Assembly: GCF_011299615.1 (NCBI RefSeq)
Contig: NZ_CP049861.1
Coordinates: 496,001 to 560,000, forward strand
Direction of reading: 5' to 3'
DNA from: Erysipelothrix sp. HDW6C
GTDB lineage: Bacteria; Bacillota_I; Bacilli_A; Erysipelotrichales; Erysipelotrichaceae
DNA: 64,000 bases
The notes beneath the pieces are model-generated. The model had not been told where the DNA came from and did not search any database. It saw nothing but the letters and a program-made list of their open reading frames with translations. This document shows positions 22,704 to 53,859 of this stretch, in pieces (positions within the stretch are counted from its first letter, which is position 1; each line of letters opens with the position of its first letter). Position numbers and translations under genes: made by a program.

Positions 22704-22736
22704 TTAAAGCGCTTTCATAGTGAAGCGTGCTATGCT
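22704..22736 (+). promoter_or_regulatory. GH101 promoter with AAGCGCTT operator (site 3)
   Basis: TTAAAGCGCTTTCA (22704-22717) is the best of the three palindromes, matching 13 of 14 positions of the cre-like consensus TGWAANCGNTNWCA. An extended -10 element TGCTATGCT follows at 22728-22736, so the operator overlaps the -35 position, where a bound protein would block polymerase. The GH101 ATG is at 22791. Confidence 0.6.
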
Positions 22737-22790
22737 TGAATTAGTTCAATATTGTTGATTAAATTCAGCAATGAGCCAAGGAGGAAGGCA

Positions 22791-32842: not shown

Positions 32843-32872
32843 AGTGGTGAATCGTCAATTCATCACTTTTTA
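32843..32872 (+). terminator. Intrinsic terminator after Ig-like membrane protein
   Basis: AGTGGTGAAT (32843-32852) pairs with ATTCATCACT (32858-32867), one G-U pair included, around CGTCA, followed by TTTTTATTT. It separates this gene from the giant gene at 33001. Confidence 0.85.
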
Positions 32873-32936: not shown

Positions 32937-32970
32937 TTGTTTCGTGATTTTCCCTTCTGTATAATAGAAG
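32937..32970 (+). promoter_or_regulatory. SigA-type promoter of the giant VPTG protein cassette
   Basis: TTGTTT (32937-32942), a 17-base spacer and TATAAT (32960-32965) form a good vegetative promoter. The -10 box lies inside an inverted repeat, CTTCT-N7-AGAAG (32954-32970), which could be an operator. RBS GAGGGGAG lies just before the ATG at 33001. The promoter probably drives all genes to the terminator at 49787. Confidence 0.7.
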
Positions 32971-33000: not shown

Positions 33001-36000
33001 ATGAAAAGAATAATTAGGCGAGGGCTTGTACTCTCGCTCACTTTAGCGTTACTGTTAACAGAAATGCTTTTTACTGCGGCTCCGGTTATGGCGGATGAAA
33101 CTGCAGGTATTGATTTAAATGGACTTGTCCAAGAGACAGGGGAACATCGATTGGATGAGAAAACATCAATCTTATCATCCGGGAATACCGTTGGTGTAAC
33201 CTATCGCTTGGTTCCAAATTTTACGGAAGGCGAAGCCCAAGGAACACGTGTGAAAATCTACTTACCATCATTTACCTATAGTGATGGTAAATATGCGGAA
33301 GTTCCGGTTGGAAGTGAACCGACCGCATTGGGGATTCATGGAGAAATTAGTGCGAGTGATGACTGGATTATTCATTCCTCACCGACCAAAGATGGCGGTT
33401 GGTTGGAACTGGAGTATCGTGGCAATATTCGTCCAGGATCAAATCCTGCTTTTGAGGTGAAGTTTTCAACGTACTCAGATGGCAGCAATGGTCCTTACGG
33501 GTCACTTCCTGAAGGTATCACGTTCAATGCATTTGGTTATGTTTCGTACGCAAGTTTCAACAGTTATCCAGATACGGGTTGGGAGACCGCAAATCAATTT
33601 GATCCTGAATCAAAAATCACAATGATTTCTTCTAACTTGAAATGGGAAGCAAACATTAAAGCAGCCGAAGGAGACAATCCTGAACCCATTCCAATGTGGG
33701 ATCGTTATCAATACATTGATTATACTTACGCAATTGAAAATACATCATCAAACTTGAATTCGATAATTGAGGGGTATACAGTCACCTTTAATGTGGATTC
33801 GACGGCGGATACACGCAATGGAATCTTGACCTATGATATTAACCGTTATCGTTACAACAAAGATGCTGAGGCAACACTCAATGAGGATCCTGGTGACACT
33901 ACAGGCCTTTTCGTAGGGGTTCCTGAAAAAGGTGGCATTCTAATTTACGACATTACGGATTGGAAGGAAGGGGAAAAACTTCCAGACCCGATTCCGTATA
34001 CCTACTCTGGGGTAGGTGTTATTGAAATAGACCAGAATACAAAAACGAACAATCAAAAAATAACACCAGAGGGTGCTACAGGTGCAAGCAAACGAATTTA
34101 TCGTATTTCGCTGCCAATGTCGCGACAAGGATTTCCAGATTTACCAACGGACTTTCAAGTCACCGCAATTACGAATGTTATATTTGCGAGTGATGCAAAC
34201 TGGTCAAAAACATCGAGTACAGTTCGCTCGATTGCAGAGCCTTCTTTCGCTGCAACAATCGATGTTCATGCACCACAAAATGAGATAGTTTTTGGTGAGG
34301 AGACAGTTATAACAATTGATAATCTTGTAAGTGGAAGTAATGTTCCGACTTTTGATAGCATGCTTGAGGTTCAGGTCGATGCAGGTTTTCATGCAAACCG
34401 TATACATGTAACATATCCGCGTGCACATGCATCAGATGCTGCATGGAAACCAACGCTGGAAACTGCGGTGTTATCTGATAAAGTTACCGGACAAGATCAA
34501 ATAATGGAGCCATTGACACTGCAACCCATATCGCAAACAATCGTTGGAGACACCGTAGTTGTCGTCTATGATATGAAAGATGTCTATGCGCGTGATGGGT
34601 GGAGTGGAACCGTGCGTGTTCCCGTGCAGAAAACAATCGACCCTAAAGCAAACACGGGTGTATCGATGGATTTAGTCGGCCAAACAACCATTATTGGACC
34701 AATCACTATAACAGGTATTTTTGAATATGTACAATACTCGGCAAACAATGGTGACTTGGGTGCTCCGACAGAGTATCTACAAACAATTAACCGTGAAACA
34801 ACGGATACATTAACACAAAATAGTATTTATCCTAAAGAACTGGTGCCTTTGCACCGCATCGTAGTAGGAGAAACTGCAGCAGCGAATCATACATACGCAG
34901 TAGATTATGACAGCAGCGCGGACTTAGATATTCAAGCGATGAGTGAAGGCGTTGTCATGGCGTCTGGAACATATACTGCATCATTAAATCCCCAGAATGA
35001 AGACATCGCAGTGCATGTCAATTCGCTAACAGTGCAGGCAATACCAACAGCACAATCCATCACGTTCAAAAGTCGTGATGGTAAACAATTCATTCTCAAT
35101 GAATCCAACCATGACTTCGCTATTGCGAAAGAACTTACGTTGGCGGCGCTGGGTCTCGATGATATTGCGACGATTCGAATTGATTTCAATCAATCATCAT
35201 TTGAAGATTACACGTCGCTTGTCATCGTGCATGCAACCATCAATAAAGGCGTTCTAGCAAACCATACAATTCCAGCGGTATTCGATGCGTATCAAGGTGT
35301 GCCTTTCAACAAGGACCGCAGTAAAAAAGTCGATACAAAGATAAATATTAAACTTCCTCAAGTGCTTTCGTTAACGGCACAAAATACCGCAACTTATGGT
35401 TCAAGCAACGGTACTGCCTTCTGGCCATCAAATGCGCAAAATCCCAATCAAGGAAGTCTAAGTGCACCATATGAAGGCATGATAAAAACGGTATACCGTG
35501 CAAACACCCAAGGTGTGATTGCACCGACATCGACCTATACCTTAGACTTTCAAAAACCGAGTGGCAAAGGATATTTGACCTTGGACACACTCCGTTTAAC
35601 GCCAGAATACCTAAACAATGCTGATGTTAAAACGATTGATTTCGTCGACATTGATGGTAAAATTGAACGTATTAATGTCCCAACCAATGATCAAACGATG
35701 CAAGAGGGATTTCAAATCACACTCAAGCGCCCGATTCAAAAAGTTACCATCTATGCAGATAATCTCAAATTATCCACACTCACAAACCTGATTGAAACAC
35801 AGATTCAATCAGATATTGATATGGGAACAACACAAATTGTTAAGGCGGAACTTTCAGGAACCCAACACGCACCGTATCCTGACACAAAGACAGCTTCAAC
35901 AAGCCATGCATATTCGGTCGCAGCAACACAATCATCTGTCAGCGTACGCGCGGTTCATCAGGTTGAGACAGGATTGGGTGTCAAAAACACGTATACGAAT

Positions 36001-39000
36001 TCTGTCTATCGTTACCTTGGCTATCCTTACTACATTCATGACTACACACTTGATATGGGGTATAAATCCATCGGAGGGTTTGTAACATCCTTAACACGAC
36101 CAACAAGTGCAAATCAAAGCAATGATCAAGTGTTGAATTTGACCATTGATGTCCCTGAAACACAATTTGATATGTACTATATCAAGATTCAAGACAAAGC
36201 ACGTGATTATGTCACAACCGTTGATATCTATCGCAAAGAAGGTGACAAGGAAGTGCTCTGGCAGCGTGTTTCCGCAGATGAATGGGTTTCAAATACTCAA
36301 GAAGGTGCTGGATTCTGGCGTATTAATGTCGCCCGACCTGAAAATAGTGGCACAGATCTTTTTGCATCCTATACGGATGTTGAAGGCGTAGTCAACCATC
36401 CGTATTACAAATCGGCATGGGAACCTGCTCCGGAAAATCCTGTAAGTAAAGTTGTCGTGAACTTTAAATTTGATCGTCAAGATCAAACCACTGCACCACA
36501 AATGTCGGGAAGTTCCAATGACCTTGTTGAAACGATGGGACGGTTTTACGCTGTTTCTGAGAAAGAAGCGAAAACTACTACAGTAACAGCTTTGGATACT
36601 TTTGGACTCAAAACCGAAACGACACGAACCGCAAACGCAACCATCAAGTCGGCAGTTATGAAACCTTACGCATACACGAAGACAGGTGTTCAAGATAAAG
36701 TTACCACAGCAAGTGCGACAGTTCTAATGGGTCAAGAGGGCGTTTATGTTGCGTCGCTTTGGAACAAAGATATTTCCAACGCGTACCAAAGTAACAACCA
36801 TTGGAACAGTGTATCATCAGAATATGTTGAATGGATTGCTGATAAAGACTATGCATCATTCCATGATGTCATGCTTTATGAGTTTGTATTCCCCAACAAT
36901 CCCACGACAAATAAAGATTATAATTTTGCGACAACCAGTATGTCAGTCACACCAGTGATGGCAAAAGATGTGTATGATCTCGCAATTTTCAGTGCGGATT
37001 CAACAACGCCACTTATTATTTCTGGTGAGACACTGCGTTCAAACGCGATCATCAAATTTGATACAAAGAGCCAAAACCGTGGAGTAACCGTACATGATGA
37101 CGGCACGCTCACTGTTGCTCTGGGTGAAAATGTTTACCCAACTCGTATTGAAATGAGTGTTAAAGAAATTGTCGGTCATGGTGATGGCAGTGCGGAAATT
37201 AAGGGACGTGATGCAAACACAATGGGGATTACCATCAATGACATTGACGTGCGCTTCGCAGGAATTGTTAATGGGAACATGCCATTAATTGGCACAAGCA
37301 ATGTCTACCGTCTGCCCAGTGGATTTGATCAAAAGAAAACGTTGATGCACACTTCCTCGGCTCAGTTGAGTGGTTACACACCGCGTCTTGGGGCTACCGT
37401 TGGACTTAGCAGTCCATCCGGTTCAACCTATGATTACCAAAGTGATGGAATCACACCAACATCAACTCGATTTAATCTTGATGTCTATAACAACAGTGAA
37501 GCTGATATTAAAGATGTAAAGCTAACCTTTAAACCCGACAGTGCTTTCCGAATGCAAACTATTCAAATCCCCGCAAGTATCTTTTCAGGAGAACAGTGGG
37601 CGGTCAGTGAGGTTGGTGTCGTTCATAATGGTGTTGCAATCGCAATGAATCTCAAGGATATTTTTGTGCTTGAAGGTGATAATTATCGATTGGATACGGC
37701 CCAACTCTTCGAAACCTATCCGGATGTCTTTAAAGTGAAGAAAAGCACATCACGATACAGTGATGTTGAAATCATTCAACAATCATTGGACGCAATTTCT
37801 GTGACGTTCAGTGCGCAAGAAGGAACCCTTTTATATGGGTCACTGGCGCGGAATGCCGATGCGACACTATCAAATCATTTAATTGTCGAGGGGGCAGAAA
37901 TCGTTGTTGATGGGAATTGGGTAGATCCGAGTGAGCATGGGAACTGGGATTGGAATTCACGCCCTGCATTTGTGAGTGATACAACCAATGCCTCAACAAA
38001 CTACACCAAACGCAGTGTAAACAATGTCTCCGCATTCGTAACGCCTGCTCAACCCATTTATGTTAATAACGGGGGTACAAATAACTCACAGACACCAAGT
38101 CTCAATTTAAATCATGATTTATACAACCGTATTGCGAACGTGCAGTTATCGGCAACCATGCGTGATGCAAATTTTGATTTTATTCAGACAAACCGTGAAT
38201 TTAGCGATACAAATTCATTGCAGGCAATTGCATACAACAATGTAGCTGTCGGTGATCAGATCACGATACTTTATGAACTCAAGAATAATGGTAACGCTAA
38301 TAACCTTCCAGTTTTCAATCCAACACTGTTTGTAAACACACCAAAGGGTCTAAAAATTGCCGACTTTAATGTGGTTACAACTGCGGATGCAGTTCCAATA
38401 CTTGACAATAATGTGCTGACGACGCGCGAAACAATCACGTCAAACATTGTCAAAGGGGCAAAGGTAGCGCTGGGAAGTGACCTTGGAAGTGAAAAAAATC
38501 TTGAAGTGCATTTTGGAGATACCGTTCTCCAACCCAATGAGTCTGTTTATGCATGGGTTACATTCGCTGTAATTAATGATTTTGGTGCAGATGTGTATGC
38601 ATCGCAAAATCAAACCATGACATGGAATGCATATGCAAAACCAGATACAACACACCACTACTTTTCTTATGATGTGAGCAGTACTTCAAGTGCACTGATT
38701 CAAAGTGGTCGGACGGATGTCACGATTGATTATGACAAATATCCGGGTGCAGAGAGTGTCGCCCACCTTTATAACACAGCATACCGTAATGCGAATCCAA
38801 ATCAATTAAAAATAGTAAACAGTTATGACGTGGAAAACATCTCGGGTCAGGCAATGCGACTTCAAATCAGTGATGTTATCAATGAAGTCAAGCACGATGA
38901 AACGACACTGTGGATGGATATTGTTTTAAACACGGATGGATTACGGGGGTTTGTCATGACAAAATTCCCAACAATTACCTATCCCAATATGACTTCGAAA

Positions 39001-42000
39001 CACTATACGCCGACATTGACATATCGTGACAAGACTGGGGTGTGGCAACCTTTGACTGAAGATACACCACTTGAACTCTTAATGTCACTGAACGAGATTC
39101 GCGTGTCCTATGGTGTGGTTGGGGCGTATGATGAAAACGGCGAAGTTCAAAAACTTCCCGAGATTTTGTTGCGTGGTGTGGGTCATTGGCAACAAGCAAC
39201 CACCGCGACACGAAAAGACTATCCAATAAAATCAAGTGCAACATTACATTATCAACATGAACACGATGAAATAAGCGTAGCCTTTAAGCAACTTAAGGAA
39301 TCCTCGGTAACGACCTACAAAGGACAACCATCAGTAGGTCTCAACATTCAATCCTTTGATACTGAGATTGAAGCAACGGCACCATACAACGGCACCGCAA
39401 TAGGAAAGACATCGTATCTCCCTCTGGAAACATTTTGGTATAAAATTACAGCTGAAAATATTAAAAATGATCAAGGACTCAAAGGAAATACGGCTTATGG
39501 AAAAGGCCCCCTCAATCAACCGATTATCATTGATAAGGTGCCAGAATATGTAACAACATCTTTGGATCCGTATATCGATGGCGAGATTATGAATGTTGAA
39601 TCAGCCATTGCTGCTGGAGCATTGGATCTGAAATTCTTCACATCAAACACTTCGCGTGACTTTATCTACCCTGAGGTTCATGTGTCAACCGTTCAAGGTC
39701 GTGATGTTGGGGGTTCACAAGCATACCATAATACCAATACAAAATCGGGTGATGGATGGTATGCTACAAACAATGAACCACCTAAAAATACTGCTCTCAA
39801 TCCTGCAAAGGTGATTACGTACCGTGTTTTTACCTATACATTCAAAGATGAAAAAATTGATCGTGGTGAACGCATTGAACTTGCTTACGCGGCAACAGCG
39901 CGTGAACACGATCTGCCCACCGCAACATATAAAGATGATGGACGTACGCTTTATGCACCGTATCTTGGAAACTATGGCCCCAACAATCCTGTTGTATCTT
40001 CAATTCGAACGACAGCAATGGACATGGCTTCATTGCGCCATGATGTTGGGATTACAGGAGTACGCAATCATGAAGAGGAAAAGACAGAGTTCTTAGCATC
40101 TTCATATGCCTATGCACCGGGATCTCTTGTTGCGAAAAACCCAAGTTCAAATCGCACCGTCGTAACCTTCTACGACCAATCCGCAAACAATCAAGTTGTT
40201 CATCAAGGGTTCCTCAATGAAGGGGGCTCACAGTCACTTTATACAACCGTTAATGGCACGACAAAAACAGATGTTTATGATTTGATGACACAAGCACGTG
40301 TCGAAGATGGTGCCATTAAAACTGAAGAAAGAATCCTTTGGGCTCAAGACAGCGTGCAATTAAGTAAAGGATGGTTATACAGTGCTTCAGAAATGGTTCC
40401 CGATACGAAACGTCAAACGCATGGTGTTGATGCTGCCAACTTCTATGAGCACGATGACAGTTTGAATCACTATAACATTGGGTATTTAGGGTACACACCT
40501 TACCTGTATGATGACTATACGTATGCCGTGCAATTGCATGAAATGTTTACGATTCGAATGCATGCCATTAATTACGGTGATGCATCGCTAAATGGGGGAA
40601 TCGAATTCCTCGAAGTTTTACCTGTTGGTATAAGTCCGTATGATGCGAATGGCGAATTGTCGCTTATCGCTACGTTGAATGATAAGAGACTCGATACGAA
40701 AAAACTTGATATCACAATCATTCAAACACCACAATCAGCGGACCCTGTTTATACTGCCCCGGAAACAGAAGGGGTGCCGTATGTTGTACGCATTCGTGTT
40801 GATGAAAAAGTGGGGCAATGGTGGAACCGCGGTAATCAGGATGAATACCAATTGACGGTTTCAATGAGAGTACGCGTTGAAAAAGAAGTGACACCCAACG
40901 CAAGTGGCCTTTCACTTTGGCGTGATACGTTAAGAGTATCCCTCATGAATCCTTCAGAAAATCCAAACTATGAGATCTATGATAGCCGTTATGGTGGTTT
41001 TAATCGTAGCTTAAGTTCTTACGATCGCCAAAACCTATACAACGATGCGATGGTACAAGGTATGAATGCACCGGTATCGGCAATTTCAGAAAGTAGTTCA
41101 ACCAGTTACTACTCATTTGAACCGTATGGATTGTATGTAAGGGGCCTTAACTCCAAAGCCACCACACAGATTGTTGATGGTGAAAAACAAGCAGTAGCAC
41201 AGGATGTTATTGCGATGCGAAAGCCAACCTTACGCATATGGACACAACCAAAAGTAAAAGGCGTGTTACCGTATGATGATACTTTCGAATCGTTTGTGTT
41301 ACCATATTATGAAACATTTGAATTACAAGCGACCGTTGAAAATGTGCAACTGGAAGCACACAATGAATATAACCGTAATAACAGTGGATACAGTTCAAAT
41401 CAAAATGATGACATTTGGCGTAATGCACCGCAAACAATTGGCGGTGCCCGTGGAGCATGGTTTGAACCGGTAGTGACGATGACACTTTCAGAAGGTATTG
41501 AACCTGTCGATGAGAATGGACAGGTGATTCCAAGTGGAGGCAGTGGTATTCAATTTAATGCCATGCGCCAAAATAGTGGCATCAATACCGTATCAAGCAG
41601 CGAAGACATCACGCGTTATTTTGATGTTACCTATGAATCAATCAATGAAAATGATGGTTCCAAACGTGGTGTCTTGAAATTTACGTCCAACGATGCGCAT
41701 GGTGCTACAGTTGGATATCTGCAAAACCTTGTCATTACACCGAAAGTAAAAACAGTCGGTGCACCATCATCACAAGGGAGTGCGCCGTTAACGCATTATC
41801 AAGACGTCCTAACTGTTGCGACATCAAGACGCGATGTATTCAATCCGGTTGTCTCTTCACAACACACAACAGGATCTGTACCTTCGCAAAGTACGCTTGT
41901 AATGAATAACGGCAGTTACTTGCGGGATAATGATCGCAAACGTCGGGACAGTTCCAGTACGTGGGCAGGAGCAACAATTACAAACCCTGGCATGATGCCA

Positions 42001-45000
42001 TTACCGGAACGTATGATTGCGGCAACGCAAAGTTTCGATGCCAAGACGATTGTTAATCTTCAAAAATGGTCACAATTACCTGCATGGAATACAATCCTTA
42101 AAGATGTTGTTGGGACAGCAGGGGGAGCATGGGGATCAACATCCCTTAGAACCCGACGCCCAAGTATTCAAAATCAAACAACAGTAGGTACGGATGCAAA
42201 CGGTGTTGTTCAAGAAACAGCATTGGTTGATCCAGCGGGTAAATTTTGGATCCGCACCACAGTTTCCAATCCAACTGAGCCCCATGTTAATCCGTATGTA
42301 CAATTGCAACAATCCAGTGATATTTATCACTCAACTTTTGTAATGACCTATGAAATCAGCGCACTTTCAAAGTTAACCGATAAGGTTCGCATTGCAACGG
42401 ACCGAGGGATTCTTGATCGCCCTGCTTTTGAGGCCCTTGGGTATAAAGTGGATGTCATTAATGCGGGAGCATTGATGCCTGAGGAAACACGTCAACATGT
42501 TCAATTTAAAGTAACCTTACCACCAGATGATAGTCTTGGGATTGCAGGGAGATTGAAGACGGATGCCTCCTTTACATTCATGTTTGAATCACAAATGATT
42601 GCTGGTTATGAAACAGGGTTTGACACGGATACACCAACATGGCAAAGTGATGCATTGCGCGTTGATTCATTCGTATCGATTGAACCGATTGAAGACGCGA
42701 AAGCGACCGTAGTTCAAGAACCGTCGTATGTCCGTTACCTGCAACGTCGTGATGAAACCTACGATATTGATCGCAATGGAACACTCACAAGTCTGTTCGC
42801 ATTTGATGGCGCAATGCTTGAAGTCATTAAACCTGCGGCACAGATTCGTAAGAATACAAGTAAGCCCCGCGAATTGTATTCAAATGGAAAAAGTGGTGAC
42901 ACCTATTTCAATACTTCAGAAGTTATTGATTACATGATGACCTATGTTGAAAACACGGGATCATCCGTTAAAGAATTTGTTGTTGAGGATATTATTCCCA
43001 CAACACAATCTGCTGATGACAGTATCAACACAAGCAAACTTCCCATTAATACAGATGTTTCGTATGTAAGTACGGGATCATGGCTCCTTCCGGATACAAC
43101 ACTTGTTGCACTTGCGGAAGCGGGATTAAGTGTTGATGATGTCTTTCAAATACACGTATATGTATCCAACGACATTGCGGTCAATGGGTATGAACCGATT
43201 GATGCATCGTGGACATTGCTTAATCCCCATGACACTTCGCTTCTAACAAACACGCAAATTCCGCTCGAAGGCACGCTTCGTAAAACCCGAAAAGTACGTT
43301 GGGTTATTACATCAAGAGATACGGATAACTTCTTAATACCGACAGGATTTAAATTGAATATTGATGCGGATCCGGACACACCAGGAATCCAAGATGTGAT
43401 TGAAACAGACCCTGAGAATCACAGTGTCAGTCTGTACCCATCATCGGTCACCGATGCAGCAATACATGTTGGTGTGAGGGCAGAATCTGATGCGAAGACA
43501 ACACTATTTATTCATAACACTGCCCAAGTGTGGAGCAATTATGTTGAAGACTATCGTATAAAATCAGCACAAAGCGAAACACGTTCATACCTTACGCCTT
43601 CGCGTCCGGTGGTAAATGTTGAGTATAGCTCACGATACTATCGTTCTGACAGCACGGGACAAAGACCAGAACACGAACGCTTTGGATGGAGTGATATTCG
43701 GACAATCAATCCACCACTCAGTCCATACCTAAAATTCAAAGGACGTTTTATTAATGGAGATGATACGATGTGGGCTTCTGATGAAAGTCATATTTATAAA
43801 TCAGATGCACTTATCAATCCCAATGTAACGTTCATGTTGCCGCGTGCGATGATGATCAATCCAACATCATTCACCTATGTCGCAATGGACTCCATTGATA
43901 GCAACCATGCGTTACACGATGACTACCGTTCGCAATATGTTCTTAAAAAGGAACAATCCAATATGTGGACATGGCGTGTTGTTCGTAAGGATGGCACGAT
44001 CAACAATACCGATATCAAGATGGTCAAATCGTATACGGGACCATGGCGCGATGCAGAACAAAATGTTGTCAACATTCGTTTTGAAGGAAGCATTGCTCCA
44101 GGCGATGTTATAGAAGTTGAGTTCATTGGTGAAGTGAATGAATACGAACCTGCTTCAACAGGAGACGACTTGAAGTCCTCCGCATATATTACCAACAACA
44201 CAGGGTTACTCCAACCACTGAACTCGCGTCAAAACAACAAGAATATTCTTGGCTATGGTTTGGATACGTATGATTTTGATGAGAATGGTATGACAAATGA
44301 CCGTCTTGTGTTTGCGGAACGAACGATGTTTGAATATGCAAATTATGATAACTTTGGAAAACGGAAAGTTGCTTACTCTGACTTGAATAAGGCTGGGACG
44401 ATTCACCCTTATGCCACACCTGTATCGGAAGGTCATAACTATCGTTTTGAGATATCTTTGGATAACTCAAAAGCACAAACAGCCAGCCCATATCCGTATC
44501 CGATGATGTACGATGTCTTGCCACATCTGGGTGATACGAATATCATGAACACAAAGGCAAGAAATAGTGCGTTCAAAGGATGGCTCCAACCAGATTCAAT
44601 TCGACTTACCAATGAAGGTATCAACAATAAGACTTACGGTAAGTCAGAATACACAGTGTATGTGGGTCCCTTTACAAAAGATGGTAATGGAAAAATAAGT
44701 AAAGGCGTGCATCCAAACGCTGATGTTGTTGCGAAACAACAGTTCTATACGGATATGTTGGATGCGAAACAGCGGAATGCTTACTTTGTGAGTTTGTCTG
44801 AGTTGGGGAATGATGAAGGATTGCTAAAAGAGGTTGAATCCATAATGGTACTCTTCACCAATCCGCAAGAGGCACTTACGGGTCAGCAAAAACTGAAACT
44901 TAGCTACGAATTGCAGGCACCGATTAATGCACCGGTACTCTTTGAGGAGCCAACAAATCCCAATGCATACCGTGATTATGTTGGTTGGAACTCTTTTGTA

Positions 45001-48000
45001 GGAACGCAAAAAGTTGTCGGATTTATGCCGCAAGAATCAAACATGGCAGGATCGTATGTCATGCAATATGCAGAAAAAACAGCAATTGGAAATTACATCT
45101 GGTTTGATGCAAACTACGATGGCATTCAAAATGAAGGAACATTAAAGACAGATGCAAACGGCCGTCAACTCCTTCAAGACTTTATTGACTTGGATGGGGA
45201 TGGCACGATTGATGATCCTGGAATCAATGGCGTTCGTGTAACACTTAAGTCGCCAAATGGTTACGATGTCGATGCACAAGGTCGCAGCATTGTTGTGGTT
45301 GATAACATATGGTATGTCATCGACGAAAGTACAGGAGACCTGTTACGTGATGATGTATTCAACATGCCAATTATCGCAAACGGCCCCACATCATTTATCA
45401 GTGAGTCCGATATTAATGGAAATGCTGGATACTATATACTTCCGAATATTGCGTCAGGAAACTACCGATTGGAGTATGTATTCCCCAAAGACTACGACAC
45501 TTATGGATTGACAACACCAGTAATTGGTGAAAATGCAGCATTGGATGTTTATGAACCGCAAGAAACCTATACACTGGGGAAATCGGTCCATCGTGCAATG
45601 ACATTAACCATGATCTCATCTGAATTCCAAATCGACGCAACAATGAGTGATGCACGCCGCATGGCTTTCGATGTAGGTCTTGGTGAAACTATCGACATTG
45701 GTGGAAACGTCTTCTTAGAAAATCCAGAGACATTTGATGGTTATTACCAAGCAGGTGAGAAACCACTTCCTAACTATCAATTGACACTTCGACACGAAGA
45801 TGGTACCCTTGTCAGAAATCTTAATGGTAAGGCGATGACTGCAGTCACGGATCGTAACGGAAATTATCAGTTCAAAGGACTGCCATTGAATAGCAACTAT
45901 CGAATCACGATTCAAGATGAAAATGGTGTTACATCGGTTTCCAAACCTATCTCGCCATTTATTCACAATACCGATCCACGTGCTGAGCGAGGCGATAATG
46001 ATGGTTATCGTGATGTAGAAGGACACTTTACATCACACGTCTTTACAACCCATGCAACTGCTAAGAAAAATGGTATTTATGAAATGATTCAAGGCATTGA
46101 CTTTGCCTTCTACCAACGGACGACTTACGGTTCCATTGGAAATCGCGTTTGGGATGATCGCAACAGAGATGGAATACAACAGACAGATGAACCAGGCCTT
46201 GCAAACCAGCTAATGATTCTGGAACAATACCGCAATATTAATGGGGAGTGGGTAATTCAAGAGAACTTCATGATGACAACGCAGTCAAATCATGATGGTT
46301 ATTACTACTTTGATAAACTACCAACCTTGGTTGTTATTGATAATGTGGAATATCCACTAGGATACCGTGTTCGTACTGGAAAATTACTGGATGGTTATAC
46401 AGTCACACTTCCGCATGTAAATGGGTCTGATGCGACAAGCGACAGTGATTTCTTTGCAGATGGTAGCATGAGGCCCGATGCCATGATTGTGTTGGGTGAA
46501 AACGTGGATGGTCTCATTTTGGCAACAAACAATCTGGATATTGATCTTGGATTGGTTGAACATGCCCGTGGTGGCATTCATGGAAAAGTATGGGATGATA
46601 TTCGTTTCGATGGAATCAATCATGCTTTAAAAGTTGGCGAAGAAACCGCAATCCGTCTCGAAGTGTATGCCGATGGACACTGGCAACAAGTTATGATGGA
46701 TGCAAATGGAAAAATGGAACTACCAGAGTCCACGCGAAGTGCTCAAAAAGTAATGCAAGTTGTAGCGAGTACCTATGCATTTGAGAATCTGTACCAAGTC
46801 CATCCACAAACTCTGATTCCTTTTGAATATCGTTTGGTTGCAGAAAATATCGATCTCACCCAACGAATTAGTCCGCAACGACAAGGAACAGATCGCGCGC
46901 TAGACAGTGATTTTGTGGAAAGCGATCGTAGCGCTACCATCACCGCAATGACAGATGGATTTACAATCTTTGATGAAGCTGTGCGAACTCCAGAGGGTAC
47001 TCATCCACTCTATACAGCCCAAACTCAGACACACATTGACTTGGGTTTGCATAAACTCTCAACACATGCTCAGATTGGAAACCGAGTGTGGAATGACCAC
47101 AATCGTGATGGTATTCAAAATGATGATGAGGTCGGAGTGGAAGGTGTTAAGGTGCAACTTCAAGTCTATAAAGACCAAGCGTGGGTTGCAGTGGAGCGCG
47201 GTGAAACAACAACAGATGAAAAAGGAAATTATACCTTTAATGTCACTGTTGCAGACGAGGGTCATATTCCCTATCAGTATCGTGTGTTAATCAATCGGGA
47301 AGCAGAACATGCAGTCACGCTTTACAAACAGGGTGATGAGACATTGGATAATGATTTCCGTGATGCAAACGATGACGATAGTGGCATTGTCGAAACAGAG
47401 CACACGCTTATTTCGCGAGAAATCCAACTTGTCGAAACAGATGTTAATGGGTATGCAGATTATGAAACCGTGGCGGACGACACTGATGTTGACGCAGGTC
47501 TCATTGTCTATGCACCCGTTCAGACAATCGGTGATCTTGTCTATCATGATCGCAACAACAATGGCCAGTTTGACATGGATGATGTTGGATTAGCGAACAT
47601 CTTGGTAAAACTTGAGAAATACAATCGCGAAAGCGAAATGTGGGAACCTTTCGCTGAAACAAATACAAATGAAGATGGATTCTACGAGTTCAAAGTTCTT
47701 GCCTTTGACATGGATCGAACATCAGCAGAATACATGACTGCGAATCAATATCGTGTGGCGGTTGTGTATCCAAACAACATGGTTGCTATCAATAACTCAA
47801 GGTTTAAAGAGACAGCGATTACTTATGATACAACGCAACATATGAGTGTAAGTGATACCATCGAACTTGTTGAACACGACATATCGGGGCGTGCTGATCG
47901 TGAGACATTACGCAGTGATGTGGATGTTGACCTTGGGATGCATGCTTATAGCACAACGGTTACAATTGGAAACCGTGTGTGGATGGATGTCAACGAAGAT

Positions 48001-48489
48001 GGTATTGAAGACGCAGCTGAAGTCGGTGTTGAAAATGTTCGTATCGACTTGCAACGTTTCAATGAAGAACTTCAGCAGTGGGTTCAGGTGGATACACGTT
48101 ATACGGATGCATTGGGAAACTATCAATTTGATGTTGCACCTACAGATTTTGATTCCAATTCACTGTACTATATGAAGACAATCAAATATCGCGTCCGTGT
48201 ATTCAAACCAGAAGGCACACTCTTTGCGAAATCAAATGTCGCAATTGAGAATATTGGGTCCGATGGTGAAGCAATTTCATATCAGCTGAATCGATACGAT
48301 GGTCACGATCTCACAACAATAGCGGATAACCTCGACCAAAACTTTGGTTTGGTTGTGATAAAACCGAAAGTGAATGTGATTGTACCAACAGGGAATGCTC
48401 CTGGTATTTTTATCACCCTGGCGCTCGTCTCTGGATTTGCATTCCTTGGATTGAAGAAAAAACGTGACGACGATGAAATCACAGATTAA
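33001..48489 (+). CDS. Giant surface protein with SdrD B-like stalk and VPTGN sorting signal (5162 aa)
   Basis: The signal peptide is about 1-32 (basic start, hydrophobic core, VMADE). Roughly 4000 residues of beta-rich, mostly non-repetitive sequence follow without a domain I can name. Residues 4027 to about 5118 hold seven SdrD/Cna-B-like domains. Most begin IGNRVWxDxNxDGIQ and contain calcium-site-like loops such as DRNRDGIQQTDE and DHNRDGIQNDDE. The end is VIVPTGNAPG (V5128 to G5131 core), a hydrophobic helix and KKKRDDDEITD. It is a sortase signal that deviates from LPXTG and is closer to the QVPTG of streptococcal T3-type pilins. It is likely a wall- or pilus-linked fibrous adhesin. The sortase gene overlaps its 3' end. 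The frame is intact over 15.5 kb. Confidence 0.93.
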   Translation: MKRIIRRGLVLSLTLALLLTEMLFTAAPVMADETAGIDLNGLVQETGEHRLDEKTSILSSGNTVGVTYRLVPNFTEGEAQGTRVKIYLPSFTYSDGKYAEVPVGSEPTALGIHGEISASDDWIIHSSPTKDGGWLELEYRGNIRPGSNPAFEVKFSTYSDGSNGPYGSLPEGITFNAFGYVSYASFNSYPDTGWETANQFDPESKITMISSNLKWEANIKAAEGDNPEPIPMWDRYQYIDYTYAIENTSSNLNSIIEGYTVTFNVDSTADTRNGILTYDINRYRYNKDAEATLNEDPGDTTGLFVGVPEKGGILIYDITDWKEGEKLPDPIPYTYSGVGVIEIDQNTKTNNQKITPEGATGASKRIYRISLPMSRQGFPDLPTDFQVTAITNVIFASDANWSKTSSTVRSIAEPSFAATIDVHAPQNEIVFGEETVITIDNLVSGSNVPTFDSMLEVQVDAGFHANRIHVTYPRAHASDAAWKPTLETAVLSDKVTGQDQIMEPLTLQPISQTIVGDTVVVVYDMKDVYARDGWSGTVRVPVQKTIDPKANTGVSMDLVGQTTIIGPITITGIFEYVQYSANNGDLGAPTEYLQTINRETTDTLTQNSIYPKELVPLHRIVVGETAAANHTYAVDYDSSADLDIQAMSEGVVMASGTYTASLNPQNEDIAVHVNSLTVQAIPTAQSITFKSRDGKQFILNESNHDFAIAKELTLAALGLDDIATIRIDFNQSSFEDYTSLVIVHATINKGVLANHTIPAVFDAYQGVPFNKDRSKKVDTKINIKLPQVLSLTAQNTATYGSSNGTAFWPSNAQNPNQGSLSAPYEGMIKTVYRANTQGVIAPTSTYTLDFQKPSGKGYLTLDTLRLTPEYLNNADVKTIDFVDIDGKIERINVPTNDQTMQEGFQITLKRPIQKVTIYADNLKLSTLTNLIETQIQSDIDMGTTQIVKAELSGTQHAPYPDTKTASTSHAYSVAATQSSVSVRAVHQVETGLGVKNTYTNSVYRYLGYPYYIHDYTLDMGYKSIGGFVTSLTRPTSANQSNDQVLNLTIDVPETQFDMYYIKIQDKARDYVTTVDIYRKEGDKEVLWQRVSADEWVSNTQEGAGFWRINVARPENSGTDLFASYTDVEGVVNHPYYKSAWEPAPENPVSKVVVNFKFDRQDQTTAPQMSGSSNDLVETMGRFYAVSEKEAKTTTVTALDTFGLKTETTRTANATIKSAVMKPYAYTKTGVQDKVTTASATVLMGQEGVYVASLWNKDISNAYQSNNHWNSVSSEYVEWIADKDYASFHDVMLYEFVFPNNPTTNKDYNFATTSMSVTPVMAKDVYDLAIFSADSTTPLIISGETLRSNAIIKFDTKSQNRGVTVHDDGTLTVALGENVYPTRIEMSVKEIVGHGDGSAEIKGRDANTMGITINDIDVRFAGIVNGNMPLIGTSNVYRLPSGFDQKKTLMHTSSAQLSGYTPRLGATVGLSSPSGSTYDYQSDGITPTSTRFNLDVYNNSEADIKDVKLTFKPDSAFRMQTIQIPASIFSGEQWAVSEVGVVHNGVAIAMNLKDIFVLEGDNYRLDTAQLFETYPDVFKVKKSTSRYSDVEIIQQSLDAISVTFSAQEGTLLYGSLARNADATLSNHLIVEGAEIVVDGNWVDPSEHGNWDWNSRPAFVSDTTNASTNYTKRSVNNVSAFVTPAQPIYVNNGGTNNSQTPSLNLNHDLYNRIANVQLSATMRDANFDFIQTNREFSDTNSLQAIAYNNVAVGDQITILYELKNNGNANNLPVFNPTLFVNTPKGLKIADFNVVTTADAVPILDNNVLTTRETITSNIVKGAKVALGSDLGSEKNLEVHFGDTVLQPNESVYAWVTFAVINDFGADVYASQNQTMTWNAYAKPDTTHHYFSYDVSSTSSALIQSGRTDVTIDYDKYPGAESVAHLYNTAYRNANPNQLKIVNSYDVENISGQAMRLQISDVINEVKHDETTLWMDIVLNTDGLRGFVMTKFPTITYPNMTSKHYTPTLTYRDKTGVWQPLTEDTPLELLMSLNEIRVSYGVVGAYDENGEVQKLPEILLRGVGHWQQATTATRKDYPIKSSATLHYQHEHDEISVAFKQLKESSVTTYKGQPSVGLNIQSFDTEIEATAPYNGTAIGKTSYLPLETFWYKITAENIKNDQGLKGNTAYGKGPLNQPIIIDKVPEYVTTSLDPYIDGEIMNVESAIAAGALDLKFFTSNTSRDFIYPEVHVSTVQGRDVGGSQAYHNTNTKSGDGWYATNNEPPKNTALNPAKVITYRVFTYTFKDEKIDRGERIELAYAATAREHDLPTATYKDDGRTLYAPYLGNYGPNNPVVSSIRTTAMDMASLRHDVGITGVRNHEEEKTEFLASSYAYAPGSLVAKNPSSNRTVVTFYDQSANNQVVHQGFLNEGGSQSLYTTVNGTTKTDVYDLMTQARVEDGAIKTEERILWAQDSVQLSKGWLYSASEMVPDTKRQTHGVDAANFYEHDDSLNHYNIGYLGYTPYLYDDYTYAVQLHEMFTIRMHAINYGDASLNGGIEFLEVLPVGISPYDANGELSLIATLNDKRLDTKKLDITIIQTPQSADPVYTAPETEGVPYVVRIRVDEKVGQWWNRGNQDEYQLTVSMRVRVEKEVTPNASGLSLWRDTLRVSLMNPSENPNYEIYDSRYGGFNRSLSSYDRQNLYNDAMVQGMNAPVSAISESSSTSYYSFEPYGLYVRGLNSKATTQIVDGEKQAVAQDVIAMRKPTLRIWTQPKVKGVLPYDDTFESFVLPYYETFELQATVENVQLEAHNEYNRNNSGYSSNQNDDIWRNAPQTIGGARGAWFEPVVTMTLSEGIEPVDENGQVIPSGGSGIQFNAMRQNSGINTVSSSEDITRYFDVTYESINENDGSKRGVLKFTSNDAHGATVGYLQNLVITPKVKTVGAPSSQGSAPLTHYQDVLTVATSRRDVFNPVVSSQHTTGSVPSQSTLVMNNGSYLRDNDRKRRDSSSTWAGATITNPGMMPLPERMIAATQSFDAKTIVNLQKWSQLPAWNTILKDVVGTAGGAWGSTSLRTRRPSIQNQTTVGTDANGVVQETALVDPAGKFWIRTTVSNPTEPHVNPYVQLQQSSDIYHSTFVMTYEISALSKLTDKVRIATDRGILDRPAFEALGYKVDVINAGALMPEETRQHVQFKVTLPPDDSLGIAGRLKTDASFTFMFESQMIAGYETGFDTDTPTWQSDALRVDSFVSIEPIEDAKATVVQEPSYVRYLQRRDETYDIDRNGTLTSLFAFDGAMLEVIKPAAQIRKNTSKPRELYSNGKSGDTYFNTSEVIDYMMTYVENTGSSVKEFVVEDIIPTTQSADDSINTSKLPINTDVSYVSTGSWLLPDTTLVALAEAGLSVDDVFQIHVYVSNDIAVNGYEPIDASWTLLNPHDTSLLTNTQIPLEGTLRKTRKVRWVITSRDTDNFLIPTGFKLNIDADPDTPGIQDVIETDPENHSVSLYPSSVTDAAIHVGVRAESDAKTTLFIHNTAQVWSNYVEDYRIKSAQSETRSYLTPSRPVVNVEYSSRYYRSDSTGQRPEHERFGWSDIRTINPPLSPYLKFKGRFINGDDTMWASDESHIYKSDALINPNVTFMLPRAMMINPTSFTYVAMDSIDSNHALHDDYRSQYVLKKEQSNMWTWRVVRKDGTINNTDIKMVKSYTGPWRDAEQNVVNIRFEGSIAPGDVIEVEFIGEVNEYEPASTGDDLKSSAYITNNTGLLQPLNSRQNNKNILGYGLDTYDFDENGMTNDRLVFAERTMFEYANYDNFGKRKVAYSDLNKAGTIHPYATPVSEGHNYRFEISLDNSKAQTASPYPYPMMYDVLPHLGDTNIMNTKARNSAFKGWLQPDSIRLTNEGINNKTYGKSEYTVYVGPFTKDGNGKISKGVHPNADVVAKQQFYTDMLDAKQRNAYFVSLSELGNDEGLLKEVESIMVLFTNPQEALTGQQKLKLSYELQAPINAPVLFEEPTNPNAYRDYVGWNSFVGTQKVVGFMPQESNMAGSYVMQYAEKTAIGNYIWFDANYDGIQNEGTLKTDANGRQLLQDFIDLDGDGTIDDPGINGVRVTLKSPNGYDVDAQGRSIVVVDNIWYVIDESTGDLLRDDVFNMPIIANGPTSFISESDINGNAGYYILPNIASGNYRLEYVFPKDYDTYGLTTPVIGENAALDVYEPQETYTLGKSVHRAMTLTMISSEFQIDATMSDARRMAFDVGLGETIDIGGNVFLENPETFDGYYQAGEKPLPNYQLTLRHEDGTLVRNLNGKAMTAVTDRNGNYQFKGLPLNSNYRITIQDENGVTSVSKPISPFIHNTDPRAERGDNDGYRDVEGHFTSHVFTTHATAKKNGIYEMIQGIDFAFYQRTTYGSIGNRVWDDRNRDGIQQTDEPGLANQLMILEQYRNINGEWVIQENFMMTTQSNHDGYYYFDKLPTLVVIDNVEYPLGYRVRTGKLLDGYTVTLPHVNGSDATSDSDFFADGSMRPDAMIVLGENVDGLILATNNLDIDLGLVEHARGGIHGKVWDDIRFDGINHALKVGEETAIRLEVYADGHWQQVMMDANGKMELPESTRSAQKVMQVVASTYAFENLYQVHPQTLIPFEYRLVAENIDLTQRISPQRQGTDRALDSDFVESDRSATITAMTDGFTIFDEAVRTPEGTHPLYTAQTQTHIDLGLHKLSTHAQIGNRVWNDHNRDGIQNDDEVGVEGVKVQLQVYKDQAWVAVERGETTTDEKGNYTFNVTVADEGHIPYQYRVLINREAEHAVTLYKQGDETLDNDFRDANDDDSGIVETEHTLISREIQLVETDVNGYADYETVADDTDVDAGLIVYAPVQTIGDLVYHDRNNNGQFDMDDVGLANILVKLEKYNRESEMWEPFAETNTNEDGFYEFKVLAFDMDRTSAEYMTANQYRVAVVYPNNMVAINNSRFKETAITYDTTQHMSVSDTIELVEHDISGRADRETLRSDVDVDLGMHAYSTTVTIGNRVWMDVNEDGIEDAAEVGVENVRIDLQRFNEELQQWVQVDTRYTDALGNYQFDVAPTDFDSNSLYYMKTIKYRVRVFKPEGTLFAKSNVAIENIGSDGEAISYQLNRYDGHDLTTIADNLDQNFGLVVIKPKVNVIVPTGNAPGIFITLALVSGFAFLGLKKKRDDDEITD

Positions 48490-49090
48490 ATATGCAATGC
48501 TAAGTTGTGTCGTACTTCTCAGTGCGACCCTCTCGCAAGCATATCCTGTTATAAAAGAAACGAAGAGACTCGAAATAAAAACGATTGAGAATAAAGATTA
48601 TATTGGAACCCTTAAGGTGGAAGGTATCTTCAACGAAGCCCTGTACGCACCTAATGACAACGAAAAGTACTTATTTCATAATGCTGAGGGGTTGGATGAT
48701 CGTCATGGCGAACTCTTTCTATCTGCAAACAGTGGTTCAGTGATGGGCGATTTTACATTAATCTATGGTCACAATAACTATGATGGAAGCAAGTTTGGTA
48801 ATTTGAGTTATCTGCTCGGTTTGGATGTAATTCCAGATTTGATTTACGAACAAGAAAAAGAAACACACACCTATGCATTTCTCTTTGCTTTTGAGTTTGA
48901 GGACGGAACAAGTGTGTTGGAACAGCAACTGTACGGTGAACAACGCATGGTGTATATTGAAACACTGAAGCAGCGGGCGATAAAATCAGATCATGAACAA
49001 ACAACAGTTGGTGATATTATTTTCCTACAAACATGCATCGGATCATATGGCGATCAACGCTATGTATTTGCCTTTACGAGGGTGTCGTAA
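48473..49090 (+). CDS. Class B-like sortase
   Basis: This membrane-linked transpeptidase has an N-terminal signal/anchor (AMLSCVVLLSATLSQAYPV). The catalytic His100 lies in LIYGHNNYDGSKFGNL, Cys188 in IIFLQTC and Arg196 in GDQRYVFAF. The G-H-N, TC and R pattern and the region between (HTYAFLFAFEFED) fit class B-type sortases better than class A. The 205-residue length is slightly short. The ATG at 48473 lies inside the end of the giant gene and no clear Shine-Dalgarno is seen, so translational coupling is likely; a GTG at 48464 is an alternative start. Its most likely substrate is the adjacent VPTGN protein. Whether it links to peptidoglycan or polymerises pilins is unknown. Confidence 0.87.
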   Translation: MKSQIKYAMLSCVVLLSATLSQAYPVIKETKRLEIKTIENKDYIGTLKVEGIFNEALYAPNDNEKYLFHNAEGLDDRHGELFLSANSGSVMGDFTLIYGHNNYDGSKFGNLSYLLGLDVIPDLIYEQEKETHTYAFLFAFEFEDGTSVLEQQLYGEQRMVYIETLKQRAIKSDHEQTTVGDIIFLQTCIGSYGDQRYVFAFTRVS

Positions 49091-49479
49091 TGAAGAAAGT
49101 GGTCTATCTTTGTGTCGTGATTTTGGCGTTGTTCATCGTATTGCAACCAGAGTTATCACGCCATATCCTAGGATTTAAACTGTTTATGATTCATGATCAA
49201 TCAATGCATGTTGCGATCGCAAGACAATCGGATAATGTACCACAAACAGGAATGGTTGTGATTCAAAATCACGATAAGTATGCCGTGGCATCTTCAAAAG
49301 ACGCAGCAATAATTATGAGTGAAGTACATGTGTATACCAAACAAAAAGAAGATACACTGTATCGTGTTGTCTTCGCTGTCCCACTTCATAGATTACTCGT
49401 GGGTGTTGTGTTTATTCTCGTTATAAAAGGAGGGTATGAATGGAAAAAAAGAAAATTACGATCATTGGGGTCGTCTTAG
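49090..49479 (+). CDS. Signal peptidase I-like membrane protein, apparently degenerate (129 aa)
   Basis: The gene starts at ATG 49090, overlapping the sortase stop by one base (TAATG). It has an N-terminal helix (VVYLCVVILALFIVL), then FKLFMIHDQSMHVAI and TGMVVIQNHDKYAV. These line up loosely with the SGSMEP and GDVVVV boxes of SipW-type signal peptidases. Near the C-terminus YRVVFAVPLHRLLVG and a second helix match the usual ending of that family. The Ser of the SM box is present, but I see no catalytic Lys or HRI-type motif, so it is probably inactive or a chaperone, as described for SipA of streptococcal pilus islands. The family call is tentative. An internal VPQTG is not a sorting signal. 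Confidence 0.6.
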   Translation: MKKVVYLCVVILALFIVLQPELSRHILGFKLFMIHDQSMHVAIARQSDNVPQTGMVVIQNHDKYAVASSKDAAIIMSEVHVYTKQKEDTLYRVVFAVPLHRLLVGVVFILVIKGGYEWKKRKLRSLGSS

Positions 49480-49784
49480 TATTCGCGGTTGTCTTCTTTG
49501 GCTATAAACAATACAACCGTACAGAGGTAAATCATGATCAGTTTACCGTGACATTAAATCAGCGATTCAAAACTGAAGTCCTGAACGACACAATCTATCT
49601 TTACATCCCAATTAATACCAACCTTGGTCATACAACTGTAAGTGTCTTAATTGATGGTAAGAAGGTTGATGCTCAAGAATTTCAATATATGATTTACAGT
49701 ATTGATACAAAGGTACCTCAGGAGAGTATTCGAACATTTGCTCTGAACGAGTTACCACTAACCATAAGTGTAATCGTATCCTGA
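49440..49784 (+). CDS. Small membrane-anchored extracytoplasmic protein (114 aa)
   Basis: The frame begins 40 bases before the previous gene ends, with AGGAGGG just upstream, so it is coupled to it. A basic start and one helix (ITIIGVVLVFAVVFFGYK) are followed by about 90 residues of mostly beta-forming sequence, including YLYIPINTNLGHTTVSVLID. No cysteine or known motif is visible. As the last gene of the giant protein-sortase cassette it may help assembly or be a minor surface component. I do not recognise the family. Confidence 0.75.
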   Translation: MEKKKITIIGVVLVFAVVFFGYKQYNRTEVNHDQFTVTLNQRFKTEVLNDTIYLYIPINTNLGHTTVSVLIDGKKVDAQEFQYMIYSIDTKVPQESIRTFALNELPLTISVIVS

Positions 49785-49786
49785 AA

Positions 49787-49817
49787 AGAAGTCGGAAAAT
49801 CTCCGGCTTCTTTTTAT
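49787..49817. terminator. Terminator of the sortase cassette (bidirectional)
   Basis: AGAAGTCGGA (49787-49796) pairs with TCCGGCTTCT (49802-49811), one wobble pair included, followed by TTTT. The convergent membrane-protein gene ends at 49814, so the hairpin can serve both directions; the minus-strand tail is a weaker T-run. Confidence 0.85.
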
Positions 49818-50779
49818 AAATTATTAATGTAGGTAAGTTCGCTGCCATCAGCTTCGTATTTAACAATACGTGAAACATTGTCATTTGCTGCAATTGCTTG
49901 TTCTGATTCGCAAATTTCTACAATAAAATAAGCAGTGTATTCGAGTTGGTAGGTTCTCAAATCAAAAATATCGGTATAGTCAAATAATATCACCAATGAA
50001 AACTCGGTTCCGTTTGGGAGGCGTTCCAAATCATCACAGTCAATTTGAATGGCATTGCTGAGATCAATCTCGAATTCTTCAGAAGAGAAGAGAATGTTGT
50101 GTTTAAACTCATGAACATAGTTCTTCTTAAGGCGTAAGGGAAGTGGTGAAACAATGTGTTGGCTTGTTATGACCAAATCCTTGATATGGTTGTCAGAGAT
50201 ATTCATAATCGTAAGATGATCAAGGAGATAGCGACTGGTGCTATCCACCGTATATTTACAATGAAGCAAGGGCATTACCTCGTCAGCGCGTTCGTTGAAA
50301 TGCGTGATGCGCACATCATGCTTGGATTCGCGACGTCGTTGATTCTCATGACTGATCGTAAGGTACAGGGCAACCATCGTAATTAAGCCCCCAGTAATAA
50401 ACCCGATAAAGCCAATCCATCCATCTGCAGAACCCACTTTGGGTAGATTAAGATTGGTCTCGTGATACAAACTCTTGCCTAATAAAATGATACTATATGC
50501 AAAGGGAATCGAGAAAACTACAAAATTGAATGTACTAATTTTGATTGCATCATCGACCAAGGACCACTTGCCACGTTTAAGTTTGCGACGAATGAAAATG
50601 AGGTAGGTTAATACAATCATACCTAGAGCCATAATGACACTGACTTTCAGAAAAGAACCGAAGTAAAGATAACGAGGTTTGATATCGAGAAGTATCGGTT
50701 TCATAATGAGCCCAAATGCAAGGACCACGAGTGCTACAACAATATCTACAATGATAATTCTGTTTGGTTTCTTATCCAT
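49814..50779 (-). CDS. Four-helix membrane protein of unknown function (321 aa)
   Basis: Four hydrophobic segments occupy residues about 10-155: VVALVVLAFGLIMKPILL, VIMALGMIVLTYLIFI, FNFVVFSIPFAYSIILL and IGFIGFITGGLITMVALYLT. A basic linker (HENQRRRESKHD) leads into a soluble, probably cytoplasmic C-terminal half with beta-type sequence. The first four-helix part and the GWIGFIGFITGG segment recall small channel-linked or signalling membrane proteins, but I cannot name the family. AGGGG precedes the ATG at 50779. It lies between the sortase cassette (convergent) and the acyltransferase gene (same strand, 68 bases upstream). Confidence 0.8.
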   Translation of the reverse strand: MDKKPNRIIIVDIVVALVVLAFGLIMKPILLDIKPRYLYFGSFLKVSVIMALGMIVLTYLIFIRRKLKRGKWSLVDDAIKISTFNFVVFSIPFAYSIILLGKSLYHETNLNLPKVGSADGWIGFIGFITGGLITMVALYLTISHENQRRRESKHDVRITHFNERADEVMPLLHCKYTVDSTSRYLLDHLTIMNISDNHIKDLVITSQHIVSPLPLRLKKNYVHEFKHNILFSSEEFEIDLSNAIQIDCDDLERLPNGTEFSLVILFDYTDIFDLRTYQLEYTAYFIVEICESEQAIAANDNVSRIVKYEADGSELTYINNL

Positions 50780-53788: not shown

Positions 53789-53859
53789 ATTAAAACCCCA
53801 CCCATTTCTTTTCAAATCGTGTATATACCCCAGATTTAATAAAGTACACAATGCTCAAT

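Follow-up and report, generated by a model that had tools for sequence, protein, structure and literature searches.

The closest described counterparts of the locus reported here are the FCT-2/3/4 pilus islands of Streptococcus pyogenes, which combine a class B sortase (SrtC/Spy0129), FctA with a QVPTG or EVPTG signal, and SipA/LepA; the signal consensus of Spy0129 is (E/Q/V)(V/P)PTG (PMC3019223). The locus shares with these islands a class B sortase that is anchored N-terminally only, an (x)VPTG signal, the placement of substrate and sortase in one operon, and an extra small membrane protein. It also resembles the pairs SrtB-IsdC (Staphylococcus aureus and Bacillus anthracis) and SrtC-BasI (B. 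anthracis), in which an accessory sortase lies beside its substrate and the signal is unlike the housekeeping LPXTG, and, in the length of its substrate, the giant adhesins (the 7651-residue protein of Mobiluncus mulieris, fibrillar adhesins, and SdrD_B MSCRAMMs), which are very long single chains with repeated domains.

The locus lies in Erysipelothrix sp. HDW6C (GCF_011299615.1, NZ_CP049861.1), within a 64,000-nt stretch of the forward strand (positions 496,001 to 560,000) that we call the window and whose numbering is used throughout. Four genes on the plus strand form an operon with terminators on both sides, in the order giant protein, sortase, 129-aa protein, and 114-aa protein:

32843..32867, + strand: terminator-like hairpin closing the preceding gene (10-bp stem and T run; fold z, -2.2)
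32960..32965, + strand: candidate -10 element TATAAT, with a weak -35 element TTGTTT 17 nt upstream (from the sequence)
33001..48489, + strand: giant secreted fiber protein, 5162 aa (open reading frame from ATG, domain matches, homologues)
48384..48486, + strand: sorting signal NVIVPTGN, membrane helix, and KKKRDDDEITD (sequence; counterpart in a second Erysipelothrix genome)
48473..49090, + strand: class B sortase, 205 aa, with an N-terminal membrane anchor (TIGR03064, SrtB enzymes in the PDB, tree)
49090..49479, + strand: 129-aa membrane protein with two transmembrane (TM) segments (from the sequence)
49440..49784, + strand: 114-aa membrane-anchored protein (sequence, structure model)
49782..49816, + strand: intrinsic terminator (15-bp stem, T tail; -19.7 kcal/mol, z -6.3)

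A preliminary description of this DNA had reported overlapping gene starts, a small anchored protein at the end of the operon, one promoter, and one terminator. The overlaps measure 17 bp (giant and sortase), 1 bp (sortase and 129-aa frame), and 40 bp (129-aa and 114-aa frames, the latter preceded by the ribosome-binding site AAGGAGGGT); the last gene does encode a membrane-anchored protein, and the terminator, which also serves a convergent gene at 49814-50779, is well supported by its fold. The promoter stands less firmly: TATAAT at 32960-32965 was absent from the output of a consensus promoter scan, and since its -10 element is perfect but its -35 element poor, a single promoter is plausible and remains a candidate.

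The giant (573.9 kDa, pI 4.75, no cysteine) is hydrophobic in just two stretches, residues 8-31 and residues 5131-5152, and is ordered as a signal peptide, about 4000 residues of unassigned modules, SdrD_B-type repeats (approximately residues 4020-5120), the VPTG signal, a TM helix, and a charged tail. The tandem repeats are matched by PF17210 (SdrD_B) at an E value of 5.2e-64 in six stretches, and a Pfam search with residues 1-2500 gave no match. The N terminus carries a conserved, unnamed domain of 500 residues, part of a rare family found in one order only in the searches made here. The C terminus reads NVIVPTGNAPG-TM-KKKRDDDEITD. The genome encodes VPTG 21 times, and that of the giant is the sole one followed by a TM helix and a charged tail. 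The LPXTG anchor family matches at least 14 other surface proteins above its cut-off; the C terminus of the giant, with its VPTGN motif, is not among the 29 places matched by PF00746 (Gram_pos_anchor) at E≤10 and does not score as an LPXTG anchor. The open reading frame, hydrophobic segments, and C terminus all agree with the secreted protein of 5162 residues, ending in VPTGN, a helix, and a charged tail, and with the non-LPXTG signal that had been proposed for it.

Sequence profiles place the 205-aa protein, first read as a sortase from its His100, Cys188, and Arg196 motifs, in class B. TIGR03064 matches residues 39-201 of the 208-aa frame at an E value of 5.9e-11; the score of 42 bits is far under the equivalog cut-off of 153.75, and the Pfam score (21 bits) is also under its cut-off (26.6). 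A profile built on the sortase finds Lmo2181, BaSrtB, and Spy0129 at E values of 1e-12 to 3e-8. The protein has one hydrophobic segment (residues 9-27) and no C-terminal TM helix. In the tree, the cassette sortases of the two Erysipelothrix species that encode them form one isolated clade (support, 100/99), whose long stem measures 1.99 changes per site. They fall outside the ychF-linked branch, so that a housekeeping-type identity was rejected; a separate housekeeping sortase adjoins dnaX at C1:362853. An origin from a phage or plasmid was also discarded (no phage match; one weak Butyrivibrio plasmid sortase, 30%).

The two small proteins are less easily placed. The 129-aa protein exposes an external loop of about 60 residues between its TM segments, with an HDQSM motif, and had been called signal-peptidase-like; by eye it does resemble signal peptidases (LGFKLF...SM, TK..D, and VP near the second TM), without statistical support. 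Comparison by hhalign with S26B/SipW-type enzymes of the same order gave a probability of 2%, the score in an HMM test against signal peptidases lay within those of shuffled sequences (1 of 200 higher), Pfam and NCBIfam searches returned no S26 match, and the counterpart in the second species lacks even the Ser-Met pair; we do not claim the assignment. A PDB search with this protein yielded a chance match only (E = 0.52), and its AlphaFold model from a single sequence was too poor to use (pLDDT, 59). The model of the 114-aa protein is better (pLDDT, 84.8 overall and approximately 94 to 97 in the ectodomain), and its one external domain is small, beta-rich, and possibly Ig-like. Foldseek gave nothing at E≤0.001, and Ig-like or beta-sandwich domains are among the top rows of VIA-align at Z scores (up to 4.8) that are too low for a fold assignment; the fold may be a known one.

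The same gene order occurs in a second Erysipelothrix genome (a giant, a sortase, a two-TM protein, and the small protein in duplicate), and the arrangement is therefore not a matter of chance. Protein identities between the species are about 35, 39, 22, and 24% for the giant, sortase, 129-aa, and 114-aa proteins; the second giant ends in STKVPTGES...KRKEELEQED, and His100, Cys188, and Arg196 are all invariant. IVPTG in the giant and KVPTG in the second species share the VPTG core of the Spy0129 consensus, with I or K rather than E, Q, or V at the first position. Searches for further cassettes in contigs of 84,980 species and, within the order and the class, in 316 and 395 genomes respectively recovered the second Erysipelothrix genome only, the next-best sortase scoring 70 bits against 449 and 370 for the cassette pair, and 11 other Erysipelothrix genomes contain neither the N-terminal domain nor the cassette sortase (the C-terminal 1162 residues of the giant find a weak domain match only). 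The cassette parts co-occur in two genomes. Since all four genes are found together again in another species, we take the cassette for a genuine, though rare, variant of an anchoring principle that is already known. Five homologous giants of 4,473 to 7,311 aa exist in another family of the same order, and the four with readable 3′ ends bear different signals, with an anchored SBP_bac_5 protein in place of the sortase cassette, which indicates that the anchoring end has been exchanged. That giants without the cassette bear another signal fits a joint change of sortase and signal.

We consider it likely that the fiber is a single monomer attached by its own, private class B sortase with the help of two small membrane proteins. 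The giant would be exported by Sec via its signal peptide and be stopped in the membrane by its C-terminal helix and the charged tail, whereupon the adjacent sortase would cut VPT|G with Cys188, in an active site completed by His100 and Arg196, and probably fix the giant to the cell wall by its VPTG tag. The SdrD_B repeats, which bear Ca2+ loops, would lie near the wall as a stalk presenting the distal 4000 or so residues, and the two small proteins may hold or hand over the long substrate at the same membrane site or shape the choice of acceptor. We infer the cleavage, wall anchoring, monomeric state, acceptor, and helper roles from sequence; VPTG, for its part, is known experimentally as a pilus-polymerizing signal (PMC3019223), so the acceptor may be a protein amine instead of peptidoglycan.

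The combination of a class B sortase, (x)VPTG, and a small membrane protein recalls FCT islands, where SipA is found only with class B SrtC (PMC7900414), and the sortase profile (A1) does find the pilus enzyme Spy0129 (3psq; E = 3.4e-8). The cassette might accordingly be read as an FCT-2/3-like pilus, the sortase polymerizing the giant or joining it to another protein via lysines and the 129-aa protein serving as a SipA-type chaperone; the preliminary description had called the system "possibly pilus-like". We regard this as unlikely. The operon has no small pilin, tip pilin, or LPXTG basal subunit, and between the two terminators there is no second protein with a sorting signal; anchoring SrtB enzymes (46-51 bits) outscore Spy0129 (36.6 bits) with the profile; the signal-peptidase homology of the 129-aa protein is unsupported; and a single-chain fiber of 574 kDa has little need for polymerization. 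What endures of the proposed dedicated system for one giant is the sortase-signal pair, with a VPTG signal that is unique in the genome and kept in the second species; the pilus-like part is not supported.

Two other arrangements concern the partner of the giant rather than its polymerization. Sortase specificities can overlap, and sortase mutants of B. anthracis show partial substitution (PMC3208642), so a housekeeping sortase could anchor the giant while the cassette enzyme stays idle or serves another substrate; this seems highly improbable, in that cassette sortase and VPTG signal are kept together in two diverged species, the catalytic residues are retained despite a sortase identity of only about 39%, and the genome has no other VPTG sorting signal. 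Alternatively, the sortase could join the giant to the 114-aa protein, giving a fiber that is covalently membrane-rooted and not wall-linked. This protein is co-transcribed and membrane-anchored with a compact beta domain, its K74 is invariant in all three known copies, and protein lysines are acceptors of class B pilus sortases (PMC3019223); the acceptor idea draws on three sequences only, however, and non-pilus class B sortases use wall precursors, which makes it very unlikely in our estimation. A fuller version, in which the giant would be fixed to the beta domain at K74 as the candidate acceptor with the two-TM protein as scaffold, we hold to be a slim chance; if true, pilus chemistry would be used once per fiber to mount a monomer, as a sortase-built, membrane-rooted giant fiber.

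Under the preferred reading of a private sortase that attaches a single fiber, the sister-family giants, with their other anchoring end and downstream partner, offer a natural comparison for why VPTG class B sortases need small membrane partners, a question that is likewise unsettled for the SipA of streptococcal pili (PMC7900414, PMC4049620). If active, the pair of sortase and VPTG signal could serve as an orthogonal ligation tool.

Our search of the open-access literature agrees with the earlier view that the cassette is not described in this form. A neighborhood search for VPTG giants beside class B sortases, which had been suggested as a check, was borne out in the second Erysipelothrix species, and elsewhere large proteins bear other signals: the gene of a class B sortase is likewise directly preceded by that of a very large, LPXTG-like surface protein in Paenibacillus athensensis (2302 aa, VPKTG), P. 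whitsoniae (2030 aa), and an Anaerolineaceae bacterium (2058 aa), but the signals there are VPKTG or NPNTG and no helper pair is visible, and for P. athensensis and the Anaerolineaceae bacterium the sortase sits on a different branch of the tree from the cassette sortases. In giant adhesins, LPxTG-type anchoring is the rule and a cassette sortase is undescribed. SrtB-IsdC and SrtC-BasI handle far smaller substrates (IsdC binds heme) with the signals NPQTN, NPKTG, and LPNTA, whereas the Erysipelothrix cassette has a giant fiber, VPTG, and two extra membrane proteins. FCT-2/3/4 islands assemble small polymerizing pilins; here, one 5162-aa substrate stands without a tip or LPXTG basal subunit, the two-TM protein has no supported signal-peptidase kinship of the kind represented by SipA/LepA, and a small beta-domain membrane protein is added. 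Set beside these systems, the cassette is a compact four-gene unit in which one class B sortase is apparently devoted to one 574-kDa substrate.

The cassette comprises four genes:

33001-48489, plus strand: giant, a 5162-residue secreted protein
48473-49090, plus strand: 205-aa sortase
49090-49479, plus strand: 129-aa protein
49440-49784, plus strand: 114-aa protein

All four open reading frames, including the sortase residues His100, Cys188 and Arg196, lie where the preliminary description placed them; the window itself is C1:496001-560000 in a genome consisting of one 2.36-Mb contig (host genus Erysipelothrix in the GTDB sense). Successive frames overlap by 17, 1, and 40 bases; a terminator-like hairpin lies upstream of the unit, and a strong terminator hairpin (z -6.3) closes it at the 3′ end. 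For the single promoter also proposed there, TATAAT at 32960-32965 is a plausible candidate element, although a consensus scan did not list it.

The giant (574 kDa) is acidic and devoid of cysteine, with hydrophobic segments confined to the signal peptide and the C-terminal anchor. Residues 1-2500 have no Pfam match; the C-terminal part carries SdrD_B repeats (PF17210, E 5e-64) with DxNxDG loops and ends in NVIVPTGNAPG-helix-KKKRDDDEITD. This tail resembles the (E/Q/V)(V/P)PTG-class signals recognized by Spy0129, the class B pilus sortase of Streptococcus pyogenes FCT islands (PMC3019223). The genome's DNA encodes VPTG at 21 places; in-frame reading of each, covering both orientations, put only the giant's inside a sorting signal. 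At least 14 other proteins exceed the cutoff of the LPXTG anchor family, and a separate housekeeping sortase is encoded elsewhere; together with the unique signal, these form the main evidence for a private sortase-giant pairing.

The 205-aa protein scores 21 bits against PF04203, under the family cutoff, and E 5.9e-11 against TIGR03064. A single-sequence search recovers class B enzymes in the PDB at 3e-8, and a two-sequence profile matches Lmo2181 (1.1e-12), BaSrtB (4e-11), and Spy0129 (3psq; 3.4e-8). The TIGR03064 and PDB matches uphold its identification as a sortase and, at the sequence level, place it as a divergent class B enzyme. In a 62-sequence tree, it forms one clade with its counterpart from G008, a second Erysipelothrix genome (support 100/99; stem length, 1.99 changes per site), and this clade does not fall within the housekeeping branch linked to ychF; no similar sortase occurs in the other Erysipelothrix genomes searched.

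Gene order in G008 is identical. Its giant lies in pieces on three contigs, which jointly span the greater part of the window giant at identities of 34.6, 34.5, and 24.8%, and ends in STKVPTGES-helix-KRKEELEQED; its sortase has 227 aa (39% identity), its two-TM protein is 22% identical to the 129-aa protein, and the 114-aa protein has two tandem counterparts (24 to 27%). That gene order, triad, and signal are all kept despite this divergence argues for a functional unit.

The 129-aa protein combines a loop of ~60 residues with two membrane helices. It had been called signal-peptidase-like, a homology unsupported in Pfam, NCBIfam, the PDB, or a purpose-built S26B/SipW alignment, and its Ser-Met pair is lost in the G008 relative; any analogy with SipA, the small signal-peptidase-like FCT protein, would be one of position only. 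For the 114-aa protein, a confident model (pLDDT 84.8 overall, about 94 to 97 in the ectodomain) shows an N-terminal membrane anchor followed by a small beta domain with one helix; Ig-like/beta-sandwich domains are among its weak structural neighbors (Z up to 4.8).

With a profile of the giant's N-terminal 500 residues, giants turn up in only 6 of the 316 genomes searched from the order; in a class-wide sample of 395 genomes, 3 have them. Those from other genomes of the order are:

G117: two frames, 6939 and 6947 aa
G096: one frame, 7311 aa
G103: one frame, 6826 aa
G120: one frame, 4473 aa, ended by a contig edge

Pairwise alignment shows the G117 and G096 giants to be collinear with the window giant (22 to 28% identity). 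Four of these five giants have readable 3′ ends, none directly followed by a sortase gene; all four have, within ~50 bases downstream, a gene for a 457- to 480-aa membrane-anchored protein, and SBP_bac_5 matched both such proteins tested (E 1e-28 and 1e-18). Their sorting signals are of VDTGD, IDTGD, KTGDN, or PKTSD type. Given these other signals and an SBP_bac_5-type partner in place of a sortase, the anchoring end and its partner have been swapped as one module, and, against the four readable homologues, a sortase of its own is confined to the Erysipelothrix version. Giants with such partners (G117:C6, L150-L152; G096:C119, L153 and L154; G103:C56, L221) span 6.8 to 7.3 thousand residues, and the constant partner of these giant surface proteins is of a solute-binding type (SBP_bac_5, oligopeptide-binding, in the two tested).

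The surrounding region (genome C1:423000-570000) is rich in surface proteins: genes or frames of 1.9 to 5.2 thousand codons that match SdrD_B or LPXTG number at least nine; window members are 898-13761, 22752-28439, 33001-48489, and a frame running past the window end (SdrD_B match, 60256-60552). Three of the nine or more are frames of similar size (2510, 2509, and 2561) and have SdrD_B matches at the same profile positions. Other features are:

20294-28439: lacto-N-biose phosphorylase and adjoining 1895-aa LPTTG-anchored GH101 endo-alpha-N-acetylgalactosaminidase
50848-53851, minus strand, immediately downstream of the cassette: gene pair with overlapping ends, Acyl_transf_3 and a cellulose-synthase-like family 2 glycosyltransferase
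55266-56936: internalin-like LRR protein, 556 aa, with Flg_new repeat and LPQTG anchor

The first is a mucin-glycan foraging cluster and thus suggests an animal mucosal habitat for the host; the second is possibly for exopolysaccharide synthesis.

In the simplest account, the private class B sortase would anchor one monomeric fiber, with the two coexpressed small membrane proteins as helpers and a peptidoglycan amine, another protein, or the small 114-aa membrane protein as candidate acceptor. The pilus-like reading offered initially fares less well: the cassette lacks the other parts that define an FCT island, which makes a pilus of that kind unlikely. An FCT-3-like pilus locus occurs in the same order, in genome G093 (L019), where a pilin-like protein ending in SPTGIVV immediately precedes a 303-aa class B sortase, with a 257-aa KTGD protein next.

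Accessory sortases adjoining single substrates are already known (SrtB-IsdC and SrtC-BasI; PMC3019223, PMC3208642), as are giant adhesins (PMC10619420). The open-access literature searched contained no system that unites VPTG and a class B sortase with a 5-kilo-residue substrate and two membrane proteins as helpers, in keeping with the preliminary view that the system was undescribed in this form. Large proteins also adjoin class B sortases in Paenibacillus and an Anaerolineaceae bacterium (L051, L081, and L086: 2030 to 2302 aa, VPKTG or NPNTG, 16 to 75 bases upstream of the sortase), which are unrelated cases of a large fiber beside its own class B sortase. With the FCT pilus sortases, the anchoring of a monomeric fiber proposed here may share its VPT acyl-enzyme chemistry.
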